A stretch of DNA of 64,000 bases from Moorella thermoacetica (GTDB taxonomy: Bacteria > Bacillota > DSM-521 > Neomoorellales > Neomoorellaceae), in contig NZ_CP012369.1 of the NCBI RefSeq assembly GCF_001267405.1, positions 584,001 to 648,000 on the forward strand, given 5' to 3'. Within the stretch, counting starts at the first letter, position 1. The number at the start of each line of letters is the position of its first letter. The notes beneath the pieces were generated by a model. It searched no databases. It worked only from the letters and a program-made list of their open reading frames with translations, and was not told the DNA's origin. Positions 37,158 through 52,471 of the stretch are shown piece by piece. A program made the translations under genes and the position numbers.

Positions 37158-38744
37158 ATGATCGGCAAAGTAGATGACGCTTTCTTCCGGCAGGCTATCC
37201 TGCCCCATACGGGAGCAGGGGATCCTGAGGTGGTAGTCGGGCCGCGCATGGGAGTGGACGCGGCGGTACTTAAAATAGGGGAGGAGTACCTGGCCGTTGC
37301 AGAGGACCCCATTTTTCCTGGACCGACGACTTCCCCCGATGACTTCGGCTGGATCACCGTCCATATCGGCGCCAGCGACGTCGCCGTCATGGGTATCAAG
37401 CCCCGTTTTATGACCTATTCCCTCTTGCTGCCGCCGGGGACGCCGGAGGACTACATCGCCGGGCTGGTCCGCAGCATCAGCACCTATGCCCGGGAGCTGG
37501 GCATTACTATCGTCGGCGGTCATACCGGTTTCTACGGGGCCGTGACCATACCTACCATTGGCGGAATTACCGTCTGGGGCCGGGGTCGGGAAGTAGTCAC
37601 CCCCGCTGGGGCCCGGGTCGGCGACGCCGTAATTATTACTAAAGGGGCGGCCATTGAAGCGGCAGCCCTGGTGGCCTGCGAGCTGGGTGAGAAGCTCCTG
37701 GCTGCCGGGATCTCCCCGGACCTGGTGGCAAGGGCTAAAAAGCGGTTGCGGGAGATGTCCGTGGTGGCTGAAGCCGGTATTGCCGTAGAAGTCGGCGGTG
37801 TACATGCCATGCACGATGCCACGGAAGGGGGCCTGGCGCGGGGCCTCTGGGAGGTGGCCGAAGCTTCCGGTGTGGGTTTAAGGATCGAACGCGCCCGGGT
37901 ACCGGTACCTGCCGATATCCGAGCAGTTTGTGACTATATTGGCCTTAACCCTTACGAAGTAATCAGCGAGGGCACCCTGGTGCTCACCTGCGCGCCGGAA
38001 AAGGCTGACGCCATGCTGGCGGCCTTTAAAGAAGCCGGCATCGAAGCGGCGGTTATCGGCCGGGTAGTACCAGCGGGCGCAGGCCGCGCCTGGCTGGAGG
38101 ATGACGGCCGGGAAGAGCAGCTCCTGCCGCCGGCGGTGGACCGCTTCTGGGAGGTCTTTTTTAACGCCCTGGCCCTAAAAAACGATACCCGTACTCCGGC
38201 GGAAGTGGCCCTGTGCCGGGAACTGGGACAGGCCGTCAGGGAGCTCGAGGAAGCTAACGTTGCCGCCCTCATCCCCGAGATCGGCGCCAACCTGGCCTAT
38301 TGCTTGCCGGAGGCAAAAGAACTCCGGGACATCGCTGCTATACCCGGCCGCCTGCTGCGTTTTAAGGGGCGAGTGGCAACCCTGGGTGAGCCGGAGATGG
38401 GCTGTTCCCACCACATGGGCGGCACCATCCTGGTGGTGCGGGAGTTCTTCCCGCAGGCACGCTGCGTCATCAACCTCCGCAACAACGCCCGGGTGCGTCA
38501 GGCCTGCGCCGATCTGGGTTATAAGGTTGTCAGCATGCCCGTGCCCCCGGACTACCGCCAGACGGACGATGATTTCTATACCGACCTGCGCCGGACCATG
38601 GCGGCCTGCCGGGAACTTCCTGACGTAATTGAAATACCCGATCGCATCAACCTGGAGCGCCTCATCCTGGTCCTGGGCCGGAACCCCGGTGAAATCGTCA
38701 GCAAGGTAACCTCCCTGGCCACCAGGGTGGCGGAATTGGAGTAG
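37158..38744 (+). CDS. AIR synthase (HypE-like) / ThiN domain fusion protein
   Basis: The 528-residue protein starts at ATG 37158 behind AGGAGGGAG. Residues ~1-325 are a PurM/HypE/ThiL-like ATP-binding enzyme: KVDDAFFRQAIL, then MGVDAAVLKIGEEYLAVAEDP, HIGASDVAVMGIKP, TIVGGHTGFYGA and MHDATEGGLARGLWEVAEA. It lacks the HypE C-terminal cysteine tail. Residues ~345-525 are different: VAALIPEIGANLAYCLPEA, IPGRLLRFKGRV, GCSHHMGGTILVVREF and CVINLRNN fit the ThiN domain of archaeal-type thiamine phosphate synthases. A kinase-like ATPase joined to ThiN suggests a role in thiamine or related phosphate-ester metabolism, but this pairing is not a standard thiamine enzyme. No thi gene or TPP riboswitch is nearby. 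Confidence 0.8.
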   Translation: MIGKVDDAFFRQAILPHTGAGDPEVVVGPRMGVDAAVLKIGEEYLAVAEDPIFPGPTTSPDDFGWITVHIGASDVAVMGIKPRFMTYSLLLPPGTPEDYIAGLVRSISTYARELGITIVGGHTGFYGAVTIPTIGGITVWGRGREVVTPAGARVGDAVIITKGAAIEAAALVACELGEKLLAAGISPDLVARAKKRLREMSVVAEAGIAVEVGGVHAMHDATEGGLARGLWEVAEASGVGLRIERARVPVPADIRAVCDYIGLNPYEVISEGTLVLTCAPEKADAMLAAFKEAGIEAAVIGRVVPAGAGRAWLEDDGREEQLLPPAVDRFWEVFFNALALKNDTRTPAEVALCRELGQAVRELEEANVAALIPEIGANLAYCLPEAKELRDIAAIPGRLLRFKGRVATLGEPEMGCSHHMGGTILVVREFFPQARCVINLRNNARVRQACADLGYKVVSMPVPPDYRQTDDDFYTDLRRTMAACRELPDVIEIPDRINLERLILVLGRNPGEIVSKVTSLATRVAELE

Positions 38745-38965: not shown

Positions 38966-39029
38966 TGAATTATAATTATAGATAATTTATGTTAGTAAAA
39001 ATCCCGGTTCATATGGGAGGTGAATGATA

Positions 39030-39830
39030 GTGGAACTTGTCACGAATAATGATCGTAACAATGACATAGCCCCACAGGAAAGAAGGCAATTGTTGTTTGA
39101 ATACATCTATAAAAATGGATCAGCTAAAATTAGTGAACTAGCCAATCGTTTTAATGTATCAGAAATGACTATCAGACGTGATATTGAAGTCTTGGAAAAA
39201 AAGAATTTAATAATGCGTACCCATGGTGGCGTATTATATCGTGAAGGTACGATATATGACCTTGGTTTAGCGGGTAATAAAGTCCACCTAAATGAAAAGA
39301 TAGCAATCGCCAAAGCTGCCCGTCCTCTTATCGAACCCGGTGATTTAATAGCCTTTGATGCCAGCACTACTGGTGCCGAACTAGCTAGATTATTAAATGG
39401 CATCGAAGATTTAACAATAGTTACTAACAGTCTTACGGTTGCTAACATCGTTGCGCCTTATAGTAATATAACTTTAATCCTGGTAGGTGGCAATTTACGC
39501 TCTAAGGCTTTATCAACGGTTGGTCCTCTGGCGGCAGATATAGTTGATCATTTTAACTTCACCAAAATGTTCTTTTCCTGTAATGCTGTGGATCCCGTAG
39601 AAGGACTTACCGATACAAATGTAGCTGAAGCCGAGATGAAAAAAATTATGCTCCAGCGAGCTGGGCAGCGTATTCTCCTGGCAGATTCTTCTAAAATTGG
39701 CAAAAGGGCTTTAGTTCGCTTTTGGCCTATGGAGGAGATTGATATCTTTGTTACTGATGCCGGGACGCCGGATGAAGCCGTCCAGGTATTTCAGGATTTA
39801 GGAGTAAGAGTCATCAGGGCCGAAGCCTGA
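39030..39830 (+). CDS. DeoR family transcriptional regulator
   Basis: GTG 39030 is nine bases after GGGAGG; ATG 39024 is only three bases away and less likely. The ~266-residue protein has an N-terminal winged helix (SAKISELANRFNVSEMTIRRDIEVLEK) and the DeoRC sugar-phosphate-binding domain (IAFDASTTGAELARLL, TIVTNSLTVANIVA, LVGGNLRSKALSTVGP, LLADSSKIGKRAL). DeoR regulators bind phosphorylated sugars. It heads the transporter-mtnK-mtnA-aldolase set, so its effector may be a phosphorylated methylthio- or deoxy-pentose. An inverted repeat AGAAAGCG/CGCTTTCT lies just after its stop (39837-39857), ahead of the binding-protein gene. Confidence 0.92.
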   Translation: MELVTNNDRNNDIAPQERRQLLFEYIYKNGSAKISELANRFNVSEMTIRRDIEVLEKKNLIMRTHGGVLYREGTIYDLGLAGNKVHLNEKIAIAKAARPLIEPGDLIAFDASTTGAELARLLNGIEDLTIVTNSLTVANIVAPYSNITLILVGGNLRSKALSTVGPLAADIVDHFNFTKMFFSCNAVDPVEGLTDTNVAEAEMKKIMLQRAGQRILLADSSKIGKRALVRFWPMEEIDIFVTDAGTPDEAVQVFQDLGVRVIRAEA

Positions 39831-39836
39831 TTGGTG

Positions 39837-39857
39837 AGAAAGCGGCAAACGCTTTCT
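39837..39857 (+). promoter_or_regulatory. Inverted repeat before the binding-protein gene
   Basis: AGAAAGCG-GCAAA-CGCTTTCT is an 8-bp perfect dyad with a five-base centre. It could be an RNA hairpin or an operator; no T-run follows. Confidence 0.5.
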
Positions 39858-39888
39858 ATGTATAAAGCCATCAAAGGGGGTAAAATGT

Positions 39889-40965
39889 ATGTCCATTTAT
39901 GAAAAAGGTATGAATCGGAGGGAGTTTATTGTCAAAAGTCTGATGGCGAGTGGGTTGGTAGCAGGTAGCTCTCTGTTGCTGAGCGGGTGCTCATCGGGCT
40001 CAACGGGTACTACTGCAAAAGAAGGCAAACGCTTGAAGGCGGCATTCTCCAATGCTGGACTCCAAGCCACCTGGTGCGCCCAGGGCAAGGATACTGTGGA
40101 ACGTTGGGGTAAATGGTTGGGAGTAGATATTACCTGGTATGACGGCGCTCTTAGTGTAGACAAGCAGCGTGCGGCCGTAGAAGATATGGCAACTAAAGAC
40201 TGGGATTTTGTCGCTATCCAACCATTGGGTATCGGTACTTTAAATGAGCCGGTCAAAAAGATGCTGGAACGCGGCATCCCCGTAATCGATATGGATACCA
40301 TGATCGCTCAACCGGGTGAATTGCCTATCACCTGCTTTATCGCTCCGGATAATGTGTGGGGAGCTGAACAGGTAACCGAAGCCCTGATGCAGGCTATTGG
40401 TGGGAAAGGTAATGTGGTAATGACTCAAGGGTCTTTAGGGCATACAGGAGCACAAGGCCGCGCCCAAGGCTTCCATAATGTCATAAAACGTTATCCTGAT
40501 GTTAAAGTGATAGATGAAACGCCAGCCGACTTCGACGTCAATAAAGTTGCCCAGATTTGGGAAAATTTGCTTAATCGTTACGATAAAATTGATGCCGCGT
40601 ATTTTCATAACGACGATATGGCCCTGGCAGCCTACCAGGTTATTAAAAATGCCGGCAGGGAAAAAGAAATTAAAATTGGTGGTAATGATGGTATGCAACC
40701 GGCAGTAGAAGCCATCCAAAAGGGTATTATGGTTGCTACGGCCCGCAATTCGGCACCACGTATTCACTGGGGTGCATTGATGATTGGGTATTATGCTGCT
40801 ACTGAAAAAGATGCGAATAAAAAAATTCCACCCTTTATTCTGGCTGATGGTCCAATTATCACCTACAATGTAGACCAGAGTAACAAGCAACCTTGGCTCA
40901 ACAAGGGCTACGGCCAGTCTCTCGCTCCTGGCCTGATCTGGCAAGAAGATCACTTTATGGTCTAA
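39889..40965 (+). CDS. Sugar ABC transporter substrate-binding lipoprotein (RbsB-like)
   Basis: The 358-residue protein has an unusual leader: NRREFIVKSLMASGLVAGSSLLLSGCS combines a twin-arginine-like NRREF start with a lipobox (LLSGC), so it is likely a lipoprotein exported through Tat or Sec. The mature part is a periplasmic-binding-protein type I fold (WDFVAIQPLGIGTL, IPVIDMDTMI, GKGNVVMTQGSLGHTGAQGRAQGF, YFHNDDMALAAYQVI, IGGNDGMQP) typical of ribose- or autoinducer-2-like receptors. With the next two genes it forms a CUT2-type importer. The substrate is inferred from the downstream kinase to be methylthioribose, 5-deoxyribose or a related pentose. Confidence 0.9.
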   Translation: MSIYEKGMNRREFIVKSLMASGLVAGSSLLLSGCSSGSTGTTAKEGKRLKAAFSNAGLQATWCAQGKDTVERWGKWLGVDITWYDGALSVDKQRAAVEDMATKDWDFVAIQPLGIGTLNEPVKKMLERGIPVIDMDTMIAQPGELPITCFIAPDNVWGAEQVTEALMQAIGGKGNVVMTQGSLGHTGAQGRAQGFHNVIKRYPDVKVIDETPADFDVNKVAQIWENLLNRYDKIDAAYFHNDDMALAAYQVIKNAGREKEIKIGGNDGMQPAVEAIQKGIMVATARNSAPRIHWGALMIGYYAATEKDANKKIPPFILADGPIITYNVDQSNKQPWLNKGYGQSLAPGLIWQEDHFMV

Positions 40966-40975
40966 CCAGGCAGTT

Positions 40976-40997
40976 GGGGAGGGAGCAATCCCTCCCC
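40976..40997 (+). terminator. GC-rich hairpin between binding protein and ATPase genes
   Basis: GGGGAGGGA-GCAA-TCCCTCCCC is a 9-bp stem with four-base loop followed by CTTAGTT. In transporter operons such a hairpin protects the upstream mRNA or partly terminates, giving excess binding protein. Confidence 0.65.
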
Positions 40998-41025
40998 CTT
41001 AGTTAATTGCCTAAGGAGGGGAATC

Positions 41026-42504
41026 ATGGAAAAAGTTTTGGAATTAAAAAATATCGTTAAAAGATATGGCCAGGTGCCGGTTTTAAAAGGTGTAGATTTT
41101 GATCTTTATGCCGGAGAGGTACATGCCATTGTTGGTCAGAATGGGGCTGGAAAGAGTACTTTAATGAAAATTTTAGCTGGCGTTATCACTGATTATGAAG
41201 GAACTGAGGTTTTAAAAGGGAAACCTGTCAGGTTTCGTTCAGCTGGCGAAGCTCAGGTCCATGGCATTGGCATGGTACATCAGGAACTGAGCGTTATTCT
41301 AAAACTTTCTGTAGCTGAGAATTTATTTATTGGTACACCCGGTAGTAAAAAAACCTTTGTAAACTGGTGGGAAATGGAGAATAAAGCTCGACAATTACTA
41401 AAGGATTTTGGCCTGGAAAGGATTAATGTAAAACGTCCCCTGGGTAGTTACCTCTTGGGTATTCAACAAATGATTGAAATCATTCGTACTATCCATTCTA
41501 GCGCTAAAATCATCATAATGGATGAACCGACCTCGGCTCTATCACCACCCGAGGTAAAGCGGTTGTTTGAACTTATCGGCCGGTTGAAACAGGCCGGTAC
41601 TAGCATTATCTTTATTTCCCATTTTCTTGATGACGTCTTGGACATCGCTGATCGGATTACCGTTCTCCGGGATGGACGTAAGATAACAACCTTGGAGAAT
41701 AAGGATATTAATAAGGCGGAACTTATCAGATTAATGCTTGGTAGCAGTGAGGGTATAAGTGAAAACACGGAGATCGAGCTATCAGCTAGTGAAAAGGAAC
41801 CTGTTTTGGAGATCAAGGATCTGAGTTGTAGGCGTTTATTTAGGGACGTAGCCTTTAGCGTTGGGAAAGGTGAAGTGGTAGGACTTTTTGGCTATATGGG
41901 TGCCGGCCATATGGAATTACCACGAGTGTTATTTGGTCTTGAAGTACCGGAAAAAGGACGGGTGATTCTACAAGGAAAAGAAGTCAAAATTAAATCTCCG
42001 GGTCATGCCAGAAGTTTGGGGTTAGCTTATGCTCCGGAAAGCAGAAAAAAGGCCCTGTGCCTTACAAAACCTATTTACGCTAATATAACTCTACCTTTCC
42101 TGGCAACTATCGGCAGGTTTGTTAATAATCGTACGCGGGAACTAGAGATCAGCCGCCAATTAATCGAACGCACTGCCCTTAGACCACCAAAACCCCTTTT
42201 AAATGTCGGTAATCTCAGTGGAGGTAATCAGCAGAAAGTCTCAGTCTCCCGTTGGTTACCTACTCATCCTATCGTTTTTATTCTCAGCGAACCTACCAGG
42301 GGCATGGATGTCGGAGCCAAAGAAGAGATAATTAATCTAGTCCGTGACCTTAAGGCCCAAGGTATGGGAATCATTGTTGCTTCCTCAGAACCAGAAACGA
42401 TTTTTGCTCTGGCCGATCGCATATTGGTGTTCTCGAAAGGTAAAATTGTGCATGAGTTTAAGCAAGGTAAAGTCAATAAAGAGCTTTTATTTCAGTATGC
42501 TTAA
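41026..42504 (+). CDS. Sugar ABC transporter ATP-binding protein (RbsA-like, two nucleotide-binding domains)
   Basis: The 492-residue protein has two ABC domains. The first has Walker A GQNGAGKST at about residues 36-44 and IIIMDEPTSAL; the second has the degenerate GYMGAGHME usual in this family, then LSGGNQQKVSVSRWL and EPTRGMDVGAKEEI. AAGGAGG stands ahead of ATG 41026. It energises uptake together with the permease downstream. The first domain shows YLLGIQQMIEI in place of the usual LSVAQQQMVEIA signature, a small deviation. Size is normal for RbsA (~500 aa). Confidence 0.95.
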   Translation: MEKVLELKNIVKRYGQVPVLKGVDFDLYAGEVHAIVGQNGAGKSTLMKILAGVITDYEGTEVLKGKPVRFRSAGEAQVHGIGMVHQELSVILKLSVAENLFIGTPGSKKTFVNWWEMENKARQLLKDFGLERINVKRPLGSYLLGIQQMIEIIRTIHSSAKIIIMDEPTSALSPPEVKRLFELIGRLKQAGTSIIFISHFLDDVLDIADRITVLRDGRKITTLENKDINKAELIRLMLGSSEGISENTEIELSASEKEPVLEIKDLSCRRLFRDVAFSVGKGEVVGLFGYMGAGHMELPRVLFGLEVPEKGRVILQGKEVKIKSPGHARSLGLAYAPESRKKALCLTKPIYANITLPFLATIGRFVNNRTRELEISRQLIERTALRPPKPLLNVGNLSGGNQQKVSVSRWLPTHPIVFILSEPTRGMDVGAKEEIINLVRDLKAQGMGIIVASSEPETIFALADRILVFSKGKIVHEFKQGKVNKELLFQYA

Positions 42505-42528
42505 ATTTTCATCTTAAAGAGGTGATAA

Positions 42529-43524
42529 GTGGTGTCAGTCGTAACTAAAAAGGAACCTGCAAATTTAGGACGGGTTTTAAAAAGAAGTCTACATTCTATG
42601 GCCCCCCTGTGGACCTTGATTATCCTATTTATCTTTTTCAGCTTGGCGTCAGATACGTTTTTTCGAATAATTAATTTCCGCAATATCTTGATTCAGGTTT
42701 CTACTATGGCCATCATGTCTACGGGGGTAACCTTTGTTTTGTTAACTGGTGAGATCGACCTCAGCGTCGCTGACGTAGGTGGCCTGGCCGGTGTCATCGC
42801 AGCTTATGCTACGGCAACCCTGGCGTTACCCCAATCACTGTCGATAATCCTGGCCCTGGTGATAACTTTACTTCTGGGTTATTTCAACGGTTTTGGTACT
42901 GCCAGATTGGGTATTCCTTCCTTTATGATCACCTTGGCTATGATGGTCATTGCAGGTGGTCTTTCACTCTATTTTACCAGGGGTCGCGTGATTTTTAAGA
43001 TACCTGATCTATTGAAAGTCCTGGGAACTGGTAGTATTGGCCCGATACCTATCATTGTTATCATAGCTGTTATAGTCCTAGCTGTGGCCCATTTTGTTCT
43101 CCAGTATACCCGCTATGGCCGCTATGTCTATATGACGGGTGCTAATCGCGAGGCAGCTGAGCTTTCGGGAGTTAATACTCGTACCGTAATAGCCTCATGC
43201 CTGGCTATTTCCGGTTTTACAGCAGGACTTTCGGGGTTAATGAACTTAGGCCGCCTTGGAAGCGCTCAACCATCAGTGCCTAGTGATATGTTAATTAATG
43301 CCATTGCTGCTGTCGTTCTTGGCGGGACCTCTTTGGCTGGTGGTGAAGGTGGCATTCCAAATACCATTATTGGCCTCTTGATTTTAGGTATATTACGTAA
43401 TGGCCTCGACCAAGTGAGTACCGATGTATATCTAAAAACCTTTATAACCGGCATTATTCTGGTAGTAGCGTTGTTTTTAAATATCGTTGCAAGCCGCCTC
43501 CGCCATACTGCTGAAGACGAATAA
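42529..43524 (+). CDS. Sugar ABC transporter permease (RbsC-like)
   Basis: The 331-residue protein has about ten membrane segments. It carries MAIMSTGVTFVLLTGEIDLSVADVGGLAG and, near the C-terminus, LINAIAAVVLGGTSLAGGEGG, both signatures of the BPD_transp_2 (RbsC/AraH) family. GTG 42529 follows AAAGAGGTGATA. It completes the importer of binding protein and double-domain ATPase. No second permease gene is present, so it would work as a homodimer, as in RbsC. Confidence 0.93.
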   Translation: MVSVVTKKEPANLGRVLKRSLHSMAPLWTLIILFIFFSLASDTFFRIINFRNILIQVSTMAIMSTGVTFVLLTGEIDLSVADVGGLAGVIAAYATATLALPQSLSIILALVITLLLGYFNGFGTARLGIPSFMITLAMMVIAGGLSLYFTRGRVIFKIPDLLKVLGTGSIGPIPIIVIIAVIVLAVAHFVLQYTRYGRYVYMTGANREAAELSGVNTRTVIASCLAISGFTAGLSGLMNLGRLGSAQPSVPSDMLINAIAAVVLGGTSLAGGEGGIPNTIIGLLILGILRNGLDQVSTDVYLKTFITGIILVVALFLNIVASRLRHTAEDE

Positions 43525-43565
43525 TAGCAGTCGGCGGATGCAAATACAATCATGGAGGGATTTTC

Positions 43566-44831
43566 ATGGATAATTTTACTGAGCACATTAAAGTACCGGA
43601 GCCGGATTTAAGCCGCTACCAGCCTCTCAACCTTGAAACGGTCATTACTTACGTAAAGCAACGGCCGGAACTGCAAGAGTTATTCTCCCCGGACGAGGAA
43701 TTGGTCAGCAGTGAAGTTGGTGACGGTAACCTGAATTTGGTCTTCCGTATTCAAGCCAAAAATGACCCTGCCCGTTCAATTATCATTAAACAAGCTTTAC
43801 CATATGTCCGTCTGGTAGGGGATAGTTGGCCCTTGAGCCCCGATCGGGCTATTATCGAAGGCAAAGCTCTGGCCATATTCTCTGCCATCTGTCCGGACCT
43901 TACTCCGAAACTTTATTATACCGATTATGATATGTATTTGAATATCATGGAGGACCTGGCGCCACGGATTATTTTGCACAAAGGTCTCATTAAGAGGCAA
44001 CACTACCCCAACTTTACGAAGCATATTGGTCGCTACCTAGCCCGGACCTTAGGAGAAACCTGTGATTTATACCTTGACCCCCAATTGAAGAAATGGAATG
44101 CCGCCCAGTTTACCAACCCTCAGCTGTGCAAGATTACCGAGGACCTCGTTTTTACCAACCCATATATTAAAGACGGAAATGGCAATCATTTCAATCCCTT
44201 GATCGCCAAAGAGGTAGAGGTTATCCAAAACGACGAAGAGCTACATGCGGAAATGGCTGAGCTGAAGGATGCCTTCATGAGTCATGGCCAAGCACTCATA
44301 CATGGTGATCTCCATACCGGCAGTATTATGGTTGATGCTGCTACTACTAAAGTTATGGACCCCGAGTTTGCCTTCTATGGACCGGCAGGATTTGATATTG
44401 GAGCTGTAATCGGCAACCTTTTCTTGAATTATGCTTCCCATGAGGGCCATACACTAGATCCTGGCGAGCGACGGGAATACCAGCAATATCTCCTGGATTT
44501 AGCTAAAGGCGTGTGGGAGAACTTCGTGGCCGAGTTTCAATTTGTCTGGGAAAAACAGGACCCTGTCCAAAGGCCGGATGCCTACAGGGAACGCTATATG
44601 TTAAAACTTATTCAGGATACGGCTGGCTTTGGCGGTGCTAAGATGATGCGTAGAATTATCGGCCTGGCCCATGTAGAGGACCTGGAAAGTATTGCTGATC
44701 CTGAGAAGAGAGCCGTTGCCGAAAGGTTGGGCCTGGCCATTGGCCGGCGTTTGGTGAAAGAGCGGTCGCATTTTAGCAGTATCAGTGATATTATTAATGT
44801 GGTCCTGACTTCACGGCCGGAGGTGTTCTAA
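43566..44831 (+). CDS. mtnK: S-methyl-5-thioribose kinase
   Basis: The 421-residue protein has the aminoglycoside-phosphotransferase-like fold with the MtnK features: EVGDGNLNLVFRI (glycine-rich loop), SIIIKQALPYVR (ATP lysine), ALIHGDLHTGSIMV (catalytic HGDLHxG) and VMDPEFAFYGPAGFDIG. It phosphorylates methylthioribose (or 5-deoxyribose) to the 1-phosphate. Length is normal (~400 aa). Its stop TAA at 44829-44831 directly touches the ATG of mtnA, showing tight coupling. The transporter upstream would bring in its substrate. Confidence 0.95.
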   Translation: MDNFTEHIKVPEPDLSRYQPLNLETVITYVKQRPELQELFSPDEELVSSEVGDGNLNLVFRIQAKNDPARSIIIKQALPYVRLVGDSWPLSPDRAIIEGKALAIFSAICPDLTPKLYYTDYDMYLNIMEDLAPRIILHKGLIKRQHYPNFTKHIGRYLARTLGETCDLYLDPQLKKWNAAQFTNPQLCKITEDLVFTNPYIKDGNGNHFNPLIAKEVEVIQNDEELHAEMAELKDAFMSHGQALIHGDLHTGSIMVDAATTKVMDPEFAFYGPAGFDIGAVIGNLFLNYASHEGHTLDPGERREYQQYLLDLAKGVWENFVAEFQFVWEKQDPVQRPDAYRERYMLKLIQDTAGFGGAKMMRRIIGLAHVEDLESIADPEKRAVAERLGLAIGRRLVKERSHFSSISDIINVVLTSRPEVF

Positions 44832-45887
44832 ATGTACGAGCCCATTGCCCCTATCAGCTGGCGTGATGGCCAGGTGGAGATGATCGACCAGACACTCTTA
44901 CCCGGGGAGCTGGTTATCATCCGGCCCCGGACGGTAGAAGAGATGTGGGACGCCATCAAGAAGCTCAAGGTCCGGGGGGCGCCGGCCATCGGCATTGCGG
45001 CAGCCCTGGGCCTGTACCTGGCTGTGAAGGACTCGGGAGCCAGGGACAAGGCCGGTTTCGAGGCCGAATTGCAAAAGGCCGCCGCTTACCTGGCTTCCTC
45101 CCGGCCTACGGCGGTAAACCTCTTCTGGGCCTTGAAGCGGGTGCAGCAGGCGGTAGCCGCCGCGGCCACGGACGACGTTGCCGCCTTAAAGGAACTGGTC
45201 CTGAAGGAAGCCCTGGCTATCCGGGATGAGGACGAGGCCATGTGCCGGGCTATCGGTGAGCACGGCGCCTCCCTTCTGGCCGACGCCGAAGCCGTCCTTA
45301 CCCACTGCAACGCCGGCACCCTGGCCACCGCCCGTTACGGCACGGCCCTGGCTCCCATCTATACCCTGGCCGCCCGGGGCAAGGTGTTGAAGGTCTTTGC
45401 CGACGAGACCAGGCCCCTCCTCCAGGGAGCCCGCCTGACTACCTGGGAATTGCACCAGGCCGGCATCCCGGTAACCCTGATCACTGACAATATGGCCGCT
45501 ACCGTGATGGCCCGGGGCTGGGTCCAGGCAGTCATCGTCGGTGCCGACCGCATCACCGCCAACGGGGACGTGGCTAATAAAATCGGTACCTACGGCGTGG
45601 CTATTTTGGCCCGGGAGCACGGCATTCCTTTCTATGTAGCCGCACCGGCCAGCACCTTTGACTTAAGCCTCTCAGGCGGGGAGCAGATACCTATCGAAGA
45701 AAGGGACCCGGCTGAGGTCAGCCATTTCGGCTTGCGGCCCACGGCCCCCGAGGGTATCGGCATTTTCAACCCGGCCTTCGATGTGACCCCCTACCGCTAT
45801 GTCACAGCCATTATTACAGAAAAAGGAGTCATCCGGCCGCCATACAAACAAAATATCGCCAAAGTATTAGCCGGCGAAAGCAGGTGA
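44832..45887 (+). CDS. mtnA: S-methyl-5-thioribose-1-phosphate isomerase
   Basis: The 351-residue protein is an eIF2B-alpha-like isomerase. It has KVRGAPAIGIAAALG, THCNAGTLATARYGTALAPI with the catalytic Cys, DETRPLLQGARLTTWEL, TDNMAATVM and GADRITANGDVANKIGTY with the catalytic Asp. It turns methylthioribose-1-phosphate into methylthioribulose-1-phosphate, and also accepts 5-deoxyribose-1-phosphate in DHAP-shunt organisms. It stands between kinase and aldolase genes in the same order as the pathway steps. GC content rises sharply from mtnK to mtnA, suggesting that the transporter-mtnK part and the mtnA-aldolase part have different histories. Confidence 0.95.
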   Translation: MYEPIAPISWRDGQVEMIDQTLLPGELVIIRPRTVEEMWDAIKKLKVRGAPAIGIAAALGLYLAVKDSGARDKAGFEAELQKAAAYLASSRPTAVNLFWALKRVQQAVAAAATDDVAALKELVLKEALAIRDEDEAMCRAIGEHGASLLADAEAVLTHCNAGTLATARYGTALAPIYTLAARGKVLKVFADETRPLLQGARLTTWELHQAGIPVTLITDNMAATVMARGWVQAVIVGADRITANGDVANKIGTYGVAILAREHGIPFYVAAPASTFDLSLSGGEQIPIEERDPAEVSHFGLRPTAPEGIGIFNPAFDVTPYRYVTAIITEKGVIRPPYKQNIAKVLAGESR

Positions 45888-45893
45888 GAGTAA

Positions 45894-46517
45894 TTGCTGC
45901 AAACTTTAAAGGAGCAAATCGTTGAAGTGGGTCGGCGCCTCTACCGGAGGGGGCTGGTTAACGGCAACGAAGGCAATATTAGCATTCGCTTGCCCGGGGA
46001 CAGGATCCTGACCACTCCTACAGGGGTGAGCAAGGGTTTCCTGCAGGCAGACGACCTGGTAATCGTGGACCTCGACGGCAATATTCTTGAGGGGAAACAG
46101 AAGCCTTCGTCGGAAGTAAAGATGCACCTGGCGGCCTACCGGGCGCGGCCGGATATCCAGGCCGCCGTCCACGCCCATCCCCGTTTCGCCACCACCTTTG
46201 CCGTAGCCCGCAAGAATCTCCCCATTACAGCCATGCCGGAAATGGTGGTCCTGGTGGGGGAGGTAGCCTTGGTACCCTATGGGACGCCCTCGACCACTGA
46301 ACTGGTGGACCAGTTCGCCCCTTACTGGCAGGGCCACGACGCCTTTTTGCTCAGCAACCACGGTGTCCTCACCCTGGGCCGGGACATCTGGGAAGCCCTC
46401 TACCGCATGGAGTCCCTGGAGCACTACGCCAGCATTATCCTGGCCAGCCAGTCCCTGGGCGGTCCTCATTACCTGGAGCCCGAGAACCTGGAGAAACTTT
46501 ACCGCTTGAAGCAGTGA
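45894..46517 (+). CDS. Class II aldolase (fuculose-1-phosphate/methylthioribulose-1-phosphate aldolase-like)
   Basis: TTG 45894 follows GGTGAGAGTAA. The 207-residue zinc enzyme shows NGNEGNISIRLPG, TPTGVSKG, SSEVKMHLAAY with the catalytic Glu, AAVHAHPRFATTF with the zinc-binding HxH, and LLSNHGVLTLG with the third His. In the DHAP shunt this aldolase splits methylthioribulose-1-phosphate to DHAP and methylthioacetaldehyde, or 5-deoxyribulose-1-phosphate to DHAP and acetaldehyde. Position six bases after mtnA supports that role. No mtnW/mtnX/mtnD genes of the usual methionine-salvage route are present here. A fuculose-phosphate aldolase is the alternative. Confidence 0.9.
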   Translation: MLQTLKEQIVEVGRRLYRRGLVNGNEGNISIRLPGDRILTTPTGVSKGFLQADDLVIVDLDGNILEGKQKPSSEVKMHLAAYRARPDIQAAVHAHPRFATTFAVARKNLPITAMPEMVVLVGEVALVPYGTPSTTELVDQFAPYWQGHDAFLLSNHGVLTLGRDIWEALYRMESLEHYASIILASQSLGGPHYLEPENLEKLYRLKQ

Positions 46518-46534
46518 AACCGGTGTTACATCTG

Positions 46535-46568
46535 GCCGGCAGTCGTTATAAAACGCGACCCTGCCGGC
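46535..46568 (+). terminator. Hairpin after the aldolase gene
   Basis: GCCGGCAG and CTGCCGGC pair around an 18-base loop that has some further complementarity. It is followed by TAATTTTCCC. It probably ends the transporter-mtnKA-aldolase transcript. Confidence 0.65.
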
Positions 46569-46686
46569 TAATTTTCCCTATTTGGGGTAGTATATATGTA
46601 GATAGGCAAGATAAAAACTGACATTTTTTCAGATGGATTCAACCCTGACTATCCCACAGATGGACTACCCCTGGAAACGCGAAGCC

Positions 46687-47012
46687 TTGACTTCAATATT
46701 TATCCATAATAAAATATAAATATCAGATCTCCTAGTTCTCAAACAGCGGCAGCTTATGCGGAAAAACAATGGTTTTTGGGTTCGGAGGCCGAAGGTTCCT
46801 GATAGGCATGTTTCGCGGTCGATATGACCTGTAGGGGTAAGTGAACCTTATTTAGGCTTTAAAGTTTGTTCATTTAGATACACGATGATGCGAAATAAAG
46901 AGGTAAAGAAGCCTCTTATTTAGGAACAGAGCTGTTCCGCAAACAAAGGGGTTTTAATTTAATTGCAAAATAAGAGGTCGGGAAGGTCTGTGACCAGAGG
47001 GAGGAATGACTG
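46687..47012 (+). promoter_or_regulatory. Promoter and long untranslated leader of the mtnP-ahcY operon
   Basis: TTGACT at 46687-46692 and TAAAAT at 46710-46715 are 17 bases apart. The leader to GTG 47013 is about 290 bases and holds several self-complementary stretches: TTCGGAGGCCGAA near 46782, AAGAGG/CCTCTT near 46900-46918, and the dyad GGAACAG-AG-CTGTTCC at 46923-46938. I do not recognise a SAM or SAH riboswitch, T-box or other known class. Confidence 0.5.
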
Positions 47013-47795
47013 GTGCGGATAGCCATTATCGGCGGTTCCGGGGTTTACGACCCCGGTATTCTCACCAACATCCACGAAGAGAGGGTGGAAACGCCCTATG
47101 GTGCCGCCGTCCTCAAGGTTGGCACCTACCATGGGGAAGAGATAGGGTTCATGCCCCGTCACGGGGATAAGCACACCGTGCCACCCCACAAGGTTAACTA
47201 CCGGGCCAATATCTGGGCCTTGAAGATGCTAAAAGTAGAACGGGTCCTGGCCACGGCCGCGGTGGGTTCCACCAATCCGGAATTCCGGCCGGGGGATTTT
47301 GTTATTGTCAATGACTTCCTGGACTTTACCAAAACACGTACTTACACCTTTTTCGAAGGGGGCGAGACGGGGGTAGTCCATACCGATTTCACGACCCCCT
47401 ATTGCCCTGAGCTTGGCCAGGTCCTGGTGGAGACAGCCGCCCGTCTGGGCATCAAGGCCCACGCCGGCGGCGTTTACGCCTGCACCGAAGGGCCGCGTTT
47501 TGAAACCCCGGCCGAGATCCGAATGATCCGGCAGCTGGGCGGCGATCTGGTGGGCATGACCAATGTTCCCGAGGTAGTGCTGGCCCATGAGGTAGGGCTC
47601 TGCTACGGCCTCATCGCCATGGTCACCAACATGGCAGCCGGCATTTCCTCCACTCCTTTAAGCCACGAAGAAGTCCTGGAGATCATGGACCAGAACGGCA
47701 AAAACTTGCGCGACCTCATTATGCAGGCTATACCCGGTATTCCCCGGCAGCGAAACTGCCGCTGCAGCCTCGCCGCCGGTAAGATTGAGGTATAA
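47013..47795 (+). CDS. mtnP: S-methyl-5'-thioadenosine phosphorylase
   Basis: GTG 47013 follows GAGGGAGGAATG. The 260-residue protein is a PNP/MTAP family member: [15 protein letters not shown] (phosphate loop), [42 protein letters not shown] and [13 protein letters not shown], all MTAP signatures. It cleaves methylthioadenosine to adenine and methylthioribose-1-phosphate, which mtnA upstream can use directly. It is followed by ahcY after 20 bases, so the two by-products of SAM use (MTA and SAH) are handled by one transcript. Confidence 0.93.
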
Positions 47796-47815
47796 AGGGT
47801 AAGGAGGAAACGTCG

Positions 47816-49069
47816 ATGCCAGCATCAATTATTCGCGATCCCAACCTGGCCCCTGAAGGCCGGTTGAAGATCGACTGGGTCCGCAACAACATGCCTATCT
47901 TAAACGAAATTCGTCGCGACTTCGAAGAGCGCCGGCCCTTCGCCGGCAAGCGGGTGGCCATCTGCCTGCACCTGGAGGCCAAGACCGCCTACCTGGCCCT
48001 GGTCATCAAGGCCGGGGGAGCGGAAGTAGCCATCTGCGGTTCCAACCCCCTTTCCACCCAGGACGACGTTTGTGCCGGGCTGGCCAGCCAGGGGGTTACC
48101 GTTTACGCCCGCCACGGCTGTACGGCGGAGGAGTACAACACCTTCCTGAATAAAGTCCTGGACACCAGGCCCCAGCTGGTCATCGATGACGGCGGCGACC
48201 TGGTCCATCTCCTCCATACCGGCCGGCGGGAACTCCTGCCGGAGATTATCGGCGGCGCCGAGGAAACGACTACGGGGATTCTACGCCTGAAGGCCATGGA
48301 AGCCGAGGGCGCCCTGGCCTTCCCCATGGTCGCCGTTAACAACGGCGACTGCAAGCACCTCTTTGACAATCGCTACGGCACCGGCCAGTCCACCTGGGAC
48401 GGGATCATGCGCAATACAAATTTGACGGTCTGCGGCAAAACCGTGGTCGTGGCCGGCTACGGCTGGTGCGGTAAGGGGGTGGCCATGCGGGCCAAAGGCC
48501 TGGGCGCCCGGGTGATTGTCACCGAGGTCAACCCCATTGCCGCCAATGAGGCCCTTATGGACGGCTTCCAGGTTATGCCCATGAAGGAAGCGGCCAGGTA
48601 CGGGGATTTCTTTGTCACCGTTACCGGCTGCAAGGACGTCATCCGCGGCGAGCACTACGCCGTGATGAAGGACGGGGCAATCCTCGCCAATGCCGGTCAT
48701 TTTGATGTGGAAATAAATAAACCGGAACTGATGGCCATGGCCAGGAGCCACCGGGTGGCCCGTCGCAACATCGAGGAGTTTGTCCTGGAAGACGGCCGGC
48801 GCATCTATCTCCTGGCCGAGGGGCGCCTGGTGAATATCGCCGCAGCCGACGGGCACCCGGCGGAGATCATGGACCTCACCTTCGCCCTCCAGGCCCTCTC
48901 TCTGGATTACCTGTTAAAGAACGCCGGCAAGCTGCCCGCCAGGGTTCTTCCCGTGACTGAGGAAATCGACCGCCGGGTGGCGTCCTTACGCCTGCGCTCC
49001 CTGGGGGTGGAGATCGATACCCTGACAGAAGAACAGGAACGTTACCTGGCCAGCTGGCGCCACGAGTAG
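47816..49069 (+). CDS. ahcY: Adenosylhomocysteinase (SAH hydrolase)
   Basis: ATG 47816 is behind AAGGAGGAAA. The 417-residue protein has [37 protein letters not shown], the substrate-binding [44 protein letters not shown] for NAD, and the C-terminal H-rich region [20 protein letters not shown]. It is the shorter SahH form seen in thermophiles and Archaea, lacking a ~40-residue insert. It splits S-adenosylhomocysteine reversibly into adenosine and homocysteine, relieving methyltransferase inhibition. Confidence 0.95.
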
Positions 49070-49097: not shown

Positions 49098-50804
49098 ATG
49101 AGCCTTATTGAAATCCGCAACCTGGAATTTACCTATAAAGGCGGTACCCAACCGGCCCTTAAAGGGATCGACCTGGATATTAACCCCGGCGAATTTATCG
49201 TCATTATGGGTCACAGCGGGGCCGGTAAGTCTACCCTGTGCCTGACTTTAAACGGCCTGGTTCCCAATTTGAAAAAGGGTGCTTTTAAAGGCGAGGTAAA
49301 GATTAAAGGTACACCAACGGCGGGGCATAAGGTCAGCCACTTTGCTCGGACGGTGGTCCTGGTATTCCAGGATTTTGAAACCCAGCTCTTCTCCACCAGC
49401 ATAGAACTGGAGGTCGCCTTCGGCCCGGAGAATTTCAATGTTCCTCCGGAGGAAATCAAGGAACGGGTGCGGGAGGCCCTGCAAAAGGTCCGCCTGACGG
49501 GATTTGAAAACCGGCAGCCGGCCAACCTTTCCGGAGGCCAGAAACAGCGCCTGGCTATAGCCTCGGTGCTTTCCATCCAACCGGAGATTATTTGCATGGA
49601 TGAGCCGACGACCGATCTCGATCCTGTAGGCAAGTATGAGGTTTTCAGCATCGCCAGCGCCCTGCGGCAGGAAAAACATATGTCCATGATTATTGTCGAG
49701 CATGAGGTGGAGGAGGCCCTGGAGGCCGACCGCATTATCCTCATGAAGGAAGGGACTATCCTGGCCCAGGGCACGCCAAGGGAGATACTGAGCCAGAGCG
49801 ATCTCCTGGCCGGCTGCGCGGTGAAACCCCTGGACATGGCCGAACTCTTCGGCCGGCTGGGTTTCAAAGAACTGCCTTTGACGGTAGAGGAAGGCCTGGA
49901 GGCGTGGCGGCGGGCGGGGTTAGCCTTAAACCAGGAGCGTTACCGGTCCATGGTTAAAGCCCAGCAGGCAGCCCGGGAGGGGAAATACGGCGAACCCATT
50001 ATTGAAGTCAAGGGCTTACGCCATAGCTATGATAAAGATTTTGAAGCCCTGAAGGGCATAGATCTCACTATCCGCCAGGGTGAGTTTGTAGCCATCCTGG
50101 GGCAGAACGGCAGCGGCAAGACTACCCTGGTCAAGCACTTCAACGGCCTGCTCCGGCCGACCGCCGGGGAAGTGGTGGTAGCCGGGATGGATACGCGGGC
50201 GGAAAGCATCGATAAATTCGGCCGCGTGGTGGGGTATGTCTTCCAGAACCCGGATCACCAGATCTTTGCCGGGACTGTAAAGGAAGAAGTGGCCTACGGT
50301 CCCAAACTCTACGGCGTGCCCCCGGCCGAGATTGAGGAGCGGGTCAGGGACGCCCTGCAGGCCGTCGAACTGGCTGGCTTGGAAGAGGAGGACCCCTTTT
50401 CCTTGACCAAAGGCCAGCGGCAGCGGGTGGCCGTAGCCTCGATCCTGGCGGCCAAACCCCGGGTGATCATCCTGGATGAACCGACGACGGGCCTGGATTA
50501 TAAAGAGCAGCGGGGTATGATGGAGTTAGTCCGGCGGCTCAATGACATGGGTCATACTATTATCATGGTCACCCACAGCATGTGGGTCACGGCCGAATAT
50601 GCCCACCGGGTAATCGTCGTTAAGGATGGGCGGGTGGTAATGGACGGCCCGACGCGGGAGGTCTTTGCCCGGGAAGAAGAACTGGAAGCCGCCTTCTTAA
50701 AGCCGCCCCAGATCGTTCGTTTCAGCAACCGCCTGGGTGCTACCTGCCTCAGCGTGGAGGAAGTAATGGCCTGCCTGGAAGGCCGCGAGGGGGGAGCAGA
50801 GTGA
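49098..50804 (+). CDS. ECF transporter ATPase, two fused ABC domains (EcfA1-EcfA2 type)
   Basis: The 568-residue protein joins two CbiO-like ATPase domains. Domain one has Walker A GHSGAGKST at about residue 37, NLSGGQKQRLAIASVL and MDEPTTDLDP; domain two has GQNGSGKTT at about residue 334, LTKGQRQRVAVASIL and LDEPTTGLDY. LTKGQ in place of LSGGQ is a known variant. The Q-loop VFQDFETQLF / VFQNPDHQIF is typical of energy-coupling-factor ATPases. It overlaps the EcfT gene by four bases (ATGA-type GTGA overlap). With EcfT and the S component downstream it forms a vitamin/nucleoside-type importer. Confidence 0.93.
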   Translation: MSLIEIRNLEFTYKGGTQPALKGIDLDINPGEFIVIMGHSGAGKSTLCLTLNGLVPNLKKGAFKGEVKIKGTPTAGHKVSHFARTVVLVFQDFETQLFSTSIELEVAFGPENFNVPPEEIKERVREALQKVRLTGFENRQPANLSGGQKQRLAIASVLSIQPEIICMDEPTTDLDPVGKYEVFSIASALRQEKHMSMIIVEHEVEEALEADRIILMKEGTILAQGTPREILSQSDLLAGCAVKPLDMAELFGRLGFKELPLTVEEGLEAWRRAGLALNQERYRSMVKAQQAAREGKYGEPIIEVKGLRHSYDKDFEALKGIDLTIRQGEFVAILGQNGSGKTTLVKHFNGLLRPTAGEVVVAGMDTRAESIDKFGRVVGYVFQNPDHQIFAGTVKEEVAYGPKLYGVPPAEIEERVRDALQAVELAGLEEEDPFSLTKGQRQRVAVASILAAKPRVIILDEPTTGLDYKEQRGMMELVRRLNDMGHTIIMVTHSMWVTAEYAHRVIVVKDGRVVMDGPTREVFAREEELEAAFLKPPQIVRFSNRLGATCLSVEEVMACLEGREGGAE

Positions 50805-51580
50805 ATCTCTATTTATACCTGGACAAGGACACCATTGTCCACCGGCTGGACCCCCGGGCTAAAATCTTGATTTTAATCTGCACCTTCGCTATACCCCTCC
50901 TCAATGACCACCCCTTATGGGTGGCGGGAGCAACGCTTTTAATTCTAATCTACGGTATGCTGGCCCGGTCCCTGGGGAATATCGCCCGCATCAAAACCAT
51001 CCTGGTTTTAATCTTCATTTTCTCCTCCCTGATGTGGTTTGTTTTTGCTAAAGGGACCACGCCCCTGTTCTGGCGTGTGACCCGGGAATCGGTCATGTAC
51101 GGCCTGGCCACCGGCCTCAAAATCGATGCCATGATTATCTCCGGGCTGATCTTCCTGTCGACTACCAAAAATGAAGAGATTACCCAGGGCCTAATCAAGC
51201 TCGGCCTCCCCTTTGCCGTAGCCTTTGTCTTTTCCACCGCCCTCAGGCTGGTGCCCACCTTTGTGGGCGCCGGGGCCACAGTATCCCAGGCCATGCGGTC
51301 CCGGGGGCTGGATATTGACTCCGGCTCCTTCCTGGAAAGGATTAAAAAATATGTACCCCTGCTGGTGCCTATCTTCCTCTCTTCCATCCGCAATACTGAT
51401 AGCCTGGCTATGGCCCTGGAAAGTAAGGGCTTTGGCAACTCTCCCCGGAGGACCTTTTACCTGCAGTTAAAATGGCAGCCGGTTGACACCCTTTTTCTGG
51501 TCTTTTTCGTGGTTTTAACCATCCTTAACGCCTGGGCTAAAATAAACGGTTTCACGTCAATAAGTGGTTTAATAAAATAA
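50801..51580 (+). CDS. ecfT: ECF transporter transmembrane (T) component
   Basis: The 259-residue membrane protein begins LDKDTIVHRLDPRAKILILICTFAIPLL, the EcfT start, and has about five helices plus the two cytoplasmic coupling motifs: SQAMRSRGLDIDS and LAMALESKGFGNS, both with the diagnostic A-R/K-G pattern. It couples the ATPases to the S component. GTG 50801 lies inside the end of the ATPase gene. Confidence 0.93.
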   Translation: MNLYLYLDKDTIVHRLDPRAKILILICTFAIPLLNDHPLWVAGATLLILIYGMLARSLGNIARIKTILVLIFIFSSLMWFVFAKGTTPLFWRVTRESVMYGLATGLKIDAMIISGLIFLSTTKNEEITQGLIKLGLPFAVAFVFSTALRLVPTFVGAGATVSQAMRSRGLDIDSGSFLERIKKYVPLLVPIFLSSIRNTDSLAMALESKGFGNSPRRTFYLQLKWQPVDTLFLVFFVVLTILNAWAKINGFTSISGLIK

Positions 51581-51682
51581 AAGGGAGGCGATGCCTCATA
51601 CATAAATGGGGGGTGATGTTTACTCAGCTGGTTGCTGGCGAGATAAGCCGGCGGAAAATTTTCCGGAAGGGGGAGAAAGGCA

Positions 51683-52471
51683 TTGAAAGAGCTATGGACC
51701 ATGTGGAAGAACACCCGGATGATCACCATGACCGCCCTCACCGCAGCCATTTTTGCAGCCCTTTTAATTCCTTTTAAAGGTATCCCGATTATCCCTGGCA
51801 TTACTGAATTTCGTCCGGCCCAGATTATCGCTACTACCTTTCCTATTTTCTTCGGACCCGCCGGTGCCTGGGGCGTGGCCATCGGCAACCTGATCGGCGA
51901 CTTTTTCGGTACCCTGGGTCCCGGCAGCTTTTTCGGCTTTTTCGGTAACCTTTTTGAAGGCTATGTGATTTATAAGATCTGGCAGGCCCTGAAGAAGGAG
52001 CCCACCATTAAATCCGGTGGCGACCTTTTTCACTATGTTTTGGCCGTCATTTTGAGCGGGGCTACCTGCGCCATGATCATCGCCTGGGGCCTGGAGGTCC
52101 TGGGAATGTTTCCCTTCGCCGTCCTGGGCACCATTATTACCCTGAATAATGTTATTGTCCCTATCTTCCTGGGGCCGCCCTTAATCCTGCTCCTTTATCC
52201 CCGGATTAAGAAATGGGACCTGATCTGGACGGATGTTATGGACCCCGAAGACATCAGCACTGTCAAGTCGCCCACCCTGGGCCTGGCCCTGATGTGGATC
52301 GGCGGCCTGGGGGGACTGATTGTTGGCCTGCTCTTGTCCACCGGCCTCTACGGGGCTAAACTGGCCGGCTTTGGTGTAGGTCACACAGGTACAGGTGTTA
52401 TTTTGGGCCTAATTCCTTTCATCGTTGTCTTCCTGGCTTCGGCCCTGGCCTTTCCCTCAAAGGGAGAGTAG
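51683..52471 (+). CDS. ECF transporter substrate-binding (S) component
   Basis: TTG 51683 follows GGAAGGGGGAGAAAGG. The 262-residue protein has about six membrane helices. It contains MTALTAAIFAALLIPFKGIPIIPGITEFRPAQ, similar to the A-x-x-x-A contact helix of S components, and AGAWGVAIGNLIGDFF. The substrate class is not evident from motif. Position directly after mtnP-ahcY suggests a methylthio or nucleoside compound (for example methylthioadenosine or a methionine precursor), but this is inference only. It is longer than typical S components (~190 aa), with an additional C-terminal two-helix section. Confidence 0.82.
   Translation: MKELWTMWKNTRMITMTALTAAIFAALLIPFKGIPIIPGITEFRPAQIIATTFPIFFGPAGAWGVAIGNLIGDFFGTLGPGSFFGFFGNLFEGYVIYKIWQALKKEPTIKSGGDLFHYVLAVILSGATCAMIIAWGLEVLGMFPFAVLGTIITLNNVIVPIFLGPPLILLLYPRIKKWDLIWTDVMDPEDISTVKSPTLGLALMWIGGLGGLIVGLLLSTGLYGAKLAGFGVGHTGTGVILGLIPFIVVFLASALAFPSKGE

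Follow-up and report, generated by a model that had tools for sequence, protein, structure and literature searches.

The question raised by this locus is what reaction is carried out by a protein in which an AIR-synthase-like ATPase is followed by a ThiN domain, and whether that reaction belongs to thiamine metabolism. The gene (37158..38744, forward strand) lies in the stretch of Moorella thermoacetica DNA that was analysed (64,000 nucleotides in full length, hereafter the window), starts with ATG, encodes 528 amino acids and is conserved in Moorella relatives. The original prediction described it as a HypE/AIR-synthase-like ATPase fused to ThiN, and this description was borne out by Pfam, by matches in the PDB and by fold comparison of an AlphaFold model. 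The AIR-synthase-fold domain (PurM/HypE/ThiL/SelD superfamily; residues 1-335; 37158..38162, forward strand) was matched by the Pfam families AIRS (residues 33-136; 75 bits; cut-off, 24) and AIRS_C (residues 153-310; 86 bits; cut-off, 23). The profile search proposed earlier for the C-terminal part identified ThiN (PF10120) at residues 355-518 (38220..38711, forward strand; 133.4 bits; cut-off, 25; E 8e-39). In the PDB, the first part of the protein matched HypE by sequence, and the second matched the ThiN domains of two archaeal proteins (2pb9 and 2php). In the AlphaFold model (pLDDT 90.8; pTM 0.69), residues 1-332 resembled HypE (Z 37.2 to 3wjp), with ThiL and SelD lower (Z about 30 for both), and residues 343-528 resembled 2php (Z 24.5) and 2pb9 (Z 24.3). 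To judge from the pTM value, the position of the two domains relative to each other is not settled in the model. Since the frame is kept in related species and dN/dS is about 0.05-0.2 in both domains, the ORF is neither a chance one nor a misjoined one. It is confirmed that one gene encodes an AIR-synthase-fold domain closest to HypE together with a real ThiN domain.

The AIRS half passed none of the NCBIfam equivalog cut-offs (HypE, 124 against 251.6 bits; ThiL, 116.4 against 184.15 bits; SelD, 79 against 125 bits). Its family is characterized by GGHT, AEDPIF, D-A-T-E-G-G and SEGT. GGHT was present in 80 of the 91 relatives compared and absent from the ThiL proteins compared (most ThiL have GGDT), and His122 of this motif (37521..37523, forward strand) is diagnostic of the family. 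The ThiL motifs GxGDD, GG[ED]D[YF] and [YW]xHF were found in none of the 91 relatives, and D-x-SDG in one. Glu271 of the SEG motif (37968..37970, forward strand) was aligned with the Glu of the motif NEG, which is catalytic in HypE. HypE (hydrogenase maturation, COG0309) is thus the nearest in fold (Z 37) and sequence and has the SEG/NEG glutamate in common, but the AIRS half differs from it in GGHT instead of GDT, in a thiamine rather than hydrogenase context, and in the C-terminal Cys (PRxC); no Cys occurs between residues 279 and 352, as had been noticed originally. The true HypE of the genome, encoded beside HypD in the hyp operon, ends in PRIC. Identity with HypE was therefore rejected, on the missing Cys and on the true hypE elsewhere in the genome. 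ThiL (thiamine-monophosphate kinase) shares the superfamily and the pathway, and the AIRS half is presumably ATP-dependent too, but the signature motifs are missing and most carrier genomes encode ThiL besides; this identity was also rejected, as a true thiL is present elsewhere in the host genome. SelD (selenophosphate synthetase) shares the superfamily and a GGH[TS] motif, but the AIRS half is under the family cut-off, and nothing in it matches the N-terminal catalytic Cys/Sec segment of SelD. The published SelD-like sulfur family is a different family, since it keeps the SelD Cys. A phage origin of the fusion was rejected, as only distant AIRS-superfamily matches were obtained. A second, wider AIRS branch with GGHTE and no SEG exists in Firmicutes and can adjoin the S component of an ECF-type transporter; such AIRS genes directly follow an S component of the TIGR04002/ECF-ribofla_trS kind at L119:4417-5908, L120:4607-6153 and L117:4681-5965.

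The host genome (2.53 Mb, single contig, 99.94% complete) was covered by family searches and by individual stretches. It contains no ThiN domain other than that of the fusion, and it has two ThiE-family genes over the cut-off, a true ThiL (306 bits), and ThiD and ThiC-family genes; a family search of the genome detected no thiamine pyrophosphokinase. The window protein is 97% identical to its counterpart in M. thermoacetica DSM 21394 (L032). No thi gene adjoins the Moorella fusion gene and no TPP riboswitch was detected upstream of it, also under a lax threshold; the thiamine role of the Moorella gene therefore rests on homology. Close relatives with a thiamine context include L036 (75% identical) and L044 (70% identical).

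As for the surroundings of the gene, the region downstream (39024-49066 of the window) encodes a DeoR regulator, a ribose-type ABC transporter, MtnK, MtnA, a class II aldolase, MtnP and adenosylhomocysteinase, and corresponds to a methylthioribose/5'-deoxynucleoside salvage cluster. The DeoR-ABC-MtnK block has no counterpart at this place in DSM 21394, in which MtnA directly follows the fusion. A complete ECF transporter (double ATPase, CbiQ-type T component and QueT-type S component; 49098-52468) ends the cluster. Just upstream of the fusion are two ORFs of about 190 amino acids (36536-37108 and 35713-36288) with no Pfam or NCBIfam match, and a VanW-like protein with an N-terminal copper amine oxidase-type domain (34610-35542).

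The thiamine link of the AIRS family is strong. Among the 28 family loci scanned for TPP riboswitches (calls over the Rfam cut-off), 19 had one no more than about 160 nt ahead of AIRS itself or of the gene that opens its operon. The riboswitch immediately precedes AIRS in L036, L044, L045, L047, L050, L051, L052, L054, L056, L103 and L113; in L038, L039, L043, L046, L048, L049, L053 and L122 it precedes an apparent operon that contains AIRS. Note that L036, L050 and L054 are fusions, and that L113 is a pair of separate AIRS and ThiN genes. Over the 72 loci with a scored AIRS gene, 45 thi genes were counted in 322 kb within 2.5 kb of AIRS (0.14 per kb) against none in 511 kb beyond 4 kb; 20 of the 72 had no thiamine gene nearby. 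The operons were thiD-thiE-thiM-thiC-fusion in L038, thiD-thiE-thiM-thiL-tenA-fusion in L039, and AIRS-thiD-thiE-HAD phosphatase in Desulfotruncus and Desulfoscipio. In a group of Thermoplasmatota that lack ThiC (0 of 9) and have ThiD (9 of 9), thiD and thiE flank AIRS so closely in L137, L138, L139 and L148 that the gene ends touch or overlap; in the other members, AIRS immediately precedes thiE. Thus, the "unknown thiamine-linked enzyme" of the original prediction is the reading that survives, by virtue of the riboswitches and thi operons around the relatives. The prediction had counted a retained full thiE combined with the lack of any thiamine link against itself; ThiE is over the cut-off in the host (G000) and in all other Moorella genomes tested, but the link is clearly there, and the interpretation as a whole is partly supported.

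The AIRS family is carried by Moorella, Desulfotomaculum relatives, Clostridium, Megasphaera, Fibrobacter, methanogens, Thermoplasmatota and Asgard-type archaea. The AIRS-ThiN fusion was found in six Moorella genomes (including that of the window) and in G011, G018 and G142, and by name in Megasphaera, Fibrobacter intestinalis, a Truepera MAG, a methanogen MAG and several Firmicutes MAGs. A search of three Moorella genomes (G001, G003 and G008) found no ThiN domain in any of them; in G001, a piece corresponding to the first 64 residues of the fusion (81% identical) is still present. The reversed order, ThiN-AIRS, occurs in archaea, a Zixibacterium and others (L063, L074, L076, L086, L088, L089 and L100), and AIRS and ThiN are separate neighbouring genes in L057, L061, L064, L015 and L016. 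A Bacillota protein (L050:439-2835), directly after a TPP riboswitch (375-489), is a triple fusion of AIRS, ThiN and isochorismatase. In a tree of 108 rows reconstructed with a quick method, 17 of the 18 AIRS-ThiN proteins grouped in a single clade (support, 97), inside which standalone proteins were also placed, the ThiN-AIRS group was in another clade (98), and the separate-gene pair of L015 and L016 was apart (100). Since the ThiN-bearing architectures are in different parts of the tree, ThiN was tied to the AIRS enzyme more than once; inside the AIRS-ThiN clade, ThiN was probably lost or gained repeatedly. MTH1187 thiamine-binding proteins (TIGR00106) were neighbours of AIRS in 18 of the 72 loci and ThiN in 23, and no locus had both (p about 3e-4 if the loci are independent), an exclusivity that is partly phylogenetic. 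The MTH1187 family differs from ThiN in its unrelated domain and in not being fused to AIRS, but it is encoded next to the same AIRS gene at loci that lack ThiN, and so it probably plays a part like that of ThiN.

The state of the ThiN domain was examined at two positions. All 19 substitutions of H95 in Thermotoga maritima ThiN are inactive (PMC11551756). His419 of the window protein (38412..38414, forward strand) was aligned with the only His common to 2pb9 and 2php in the aligned stretch, and its equivalence to the T. maritima residue essential for TMP synthase was drawn through this alignment, not through direct comparison with the T. maritima sequence. The position is His in 10 of the 18 AIRS-ThiN fusions, the window protein included, and Tyr, Arg or Asn in the other 8, both states occurring among the Moorella fusions; it is His in all 12 ThiN-first or separate ThiN proteins. 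Arg398 (38349..38351, forward strand) is invariant across all ThiN domains compared, and ThiN shows dN/dS of 0.27 between two His-less fusions, that is, purifying selection. Because the His is lost in 8 of 18 fusions while Arg398 is invariant and selection persists, ThiN is kept for something else; in the AIRS-ThiN lineage it is retained, not strictly as a synthase. Furthermore, as the Moorella genomes tested all keep ThiE, the ThiN domain is not needed as their TMP synthase. The fusion thus agrees with the known thiamine phosphate synthase domain of ThiDN and ThiN in domain family, fold, Arg398 and, in the window protein, His419, but differs in having the AIRS enzyme instead of ThiD as the partner, in the additional presence of ThiE and in the loss of the essential His from 8 of 18 fusions.

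The explanation that we prefer, with a rough probability of 0.45, is that the protein would be an ATP-using enzyme of thiamine metabolism acting at a salvage or repair step, its AIRS half representing a distinct, unnamed branch of the PurM/HypE/ThiL/SelD superfamily and its ThiN domain serving, in the Moorella-type lineage, as a thiamine-phosphate-binding module. The chemistry of the superfamily is phosphorylation (ThiL) or ATP-driven dehydration (PurM, HypE). The AIRS half would bind Mg-ATP at the dimer interface and spend the ATP on a thiamine-type substrate at the ThiD/ThiE/TMP node, in a salvage or repair reaction outside the canonical steps; the Moorella-type ThiN would mainly hold a thiamine phosphate (substrate, product or regulator) in the Arg398 pocket. 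ThiN may have remained an active synthase in the ThiN-first lineage (archaea and others), all of whose ThiN domains retain the essential His and most of whose genomes lack ThiE. As the L039 operon contains ThiD, ThiE, ThiM, ThiL and TenA in addition to the fusion, no canonical coupling or kinase step is left there, and the reading that assumes least is a reaction beyond the canonical ones. Salvage is suggested by TenA and by the absence of ThiC from several carriers. This argument is made by exclusion, and redundant enzymes for one canonical step would look identical. Against the preferred explanation count the Moorella locus itself, with neither riboswitch nor thi gene and with the salvage cluster as its neighbour, the 20 of 72 loci that have no thiamine gene nearby, and the window protein, which still has the catalytic His. 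It is possible, though on balance doubtful, that the family constitutes a new ATP-dependent salvage or repair step of bacteria and archaea with ThiN or MTH1187 as exchangeable thiamine-binding partners. One concrete form, by pure analogy with PurM, which uses an N-formyl group to close the imidazole ring of AIR, would be a dehydrative ring closure that re-forms the thiazolium of a ring-opened (N-formyl, thiol) thiamine phosphate; the ring-opened thiol form may also close without an enzyme.

A bifunctional TMP synthase/TMP kinase, in which ThiN makes TMP and a ThiL-like AIRS half converts it to TPP, is unlikely. G011 (99% complete) encodes the fusion together with ThiC, ThiD, ThiM and two ThiE, but neither it nor the L038 genome has a ThiL over the cut-off or a thiamine pyrophosphokinase; ThiL is also absent from several genomes with a standalone AIRS in thi operons (G206-G209 and G224), and AIRS is structurally similar to ThiL (Z 30). 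However, a true ThiL is present in most carriers (all Moorella and nearly all archaea) and in L039 lies within the same operon, the three ThiL motifs found in 0 of 91 relatives and the ThiL score of 116 against 184 argue against a kinase of this type, and most ThiL-less Firmicutes have a pyrophosphokinase; the synthase role is disfavoured by the presence of ThiE and the frequent loss of the ThiN His. A general replacement of ThiL was rejected, since among 80 archaeal genomes ThiL was over the cut-off in 67 and strongly matched in 78. Replacement of ThiM was also rejected, since the operons of L038 and L039 include ThiM as well, and in G011 and G142 it adjoins thiE.

We consider it quite improbable that the protein is a non-orthologous ThiDN, with AIRS as an HMP-P kinase supplying HMP-PP to ThiN. 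The ThiN-AIRS architecture does mirror ThiD-ThiN, and five genomes with ThiN-AIRS, fused or adjacent (G214, G216, G217, G220 and G221), have ThiC and no ThiD over the cut-off, but these are mostly draft assemblies, and such absence calls are affected by the incompleteness of metagenome assemblies. ThiDN or ThiD is present in seven other ThiN-AIRS genomes (G211, G212, G213, G219, G223, G469 and G471), so that ThiD replacement was rejected as a general explanation, and thiD shares an operon with AIRS in many loci. Similarly low is the probability of a regulator or metabolite sensor, namely an ATP-dependent AIRS dimer set by TMP or thiamine on ThiN or MTH1187: the catalytic His is dispensable while the Arg is kept, the thiamine-binding partners are exchangeable, and non-catalytic ThiN domains reportedly act as sensors in the archaeal repressor ThiR, but the protein has no DNA-binding domain and its AIRS half keeps enzyme-like invariant residues. 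A HypE paralogue for a hydrogenase or another metallocentre, with no thiamine role, has almost no probability left, as the best match in fold and sequence (HypE) and the common NEG/SEG Glu are set against the missing C-terminal Cys, the true HypE in the hyp operon, the score of 124 against 251.6 and the thiamine context, by which this reading is already largely refuted.

The thiamine pathway belongs to the textbook pathways and is regarded as almost fully worked out. In the open-licence literature, we found no paper on an AIR synthase with a TPP riboswitch or with MTH1187, and the AIRS-family step of thiamine making or salvage appears to have been assigned by nobody so far. A riboswitch-controlled AIRS family would mean either that the pathway maps omit a salvage, repair or control step or that an alternative enzyme for known steps has gone unrecognised; the ThiN domain would be a case of retention without the catalytic His as part of a larger enzyme. 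Two further gene sets were observed in the operons. An MtnX-like HAD-IB phosphatase is a late gene of the AIRS-thiD-thiE operons (L103:12727-13392, and likewise in L044-L047 and L049) and is a candidate TMP or HMP-P phosphatase. In G142, LuxE-, LuxC- and SDR-family genes follow a TPP riboswitch and precede the AIRS-ThiN fusion (L122:10233-15376); they could reduce an oxidised thiamine precursor, and the set is possibly a carboxylate-to-alcohol reduction module in the thiamine regulon.
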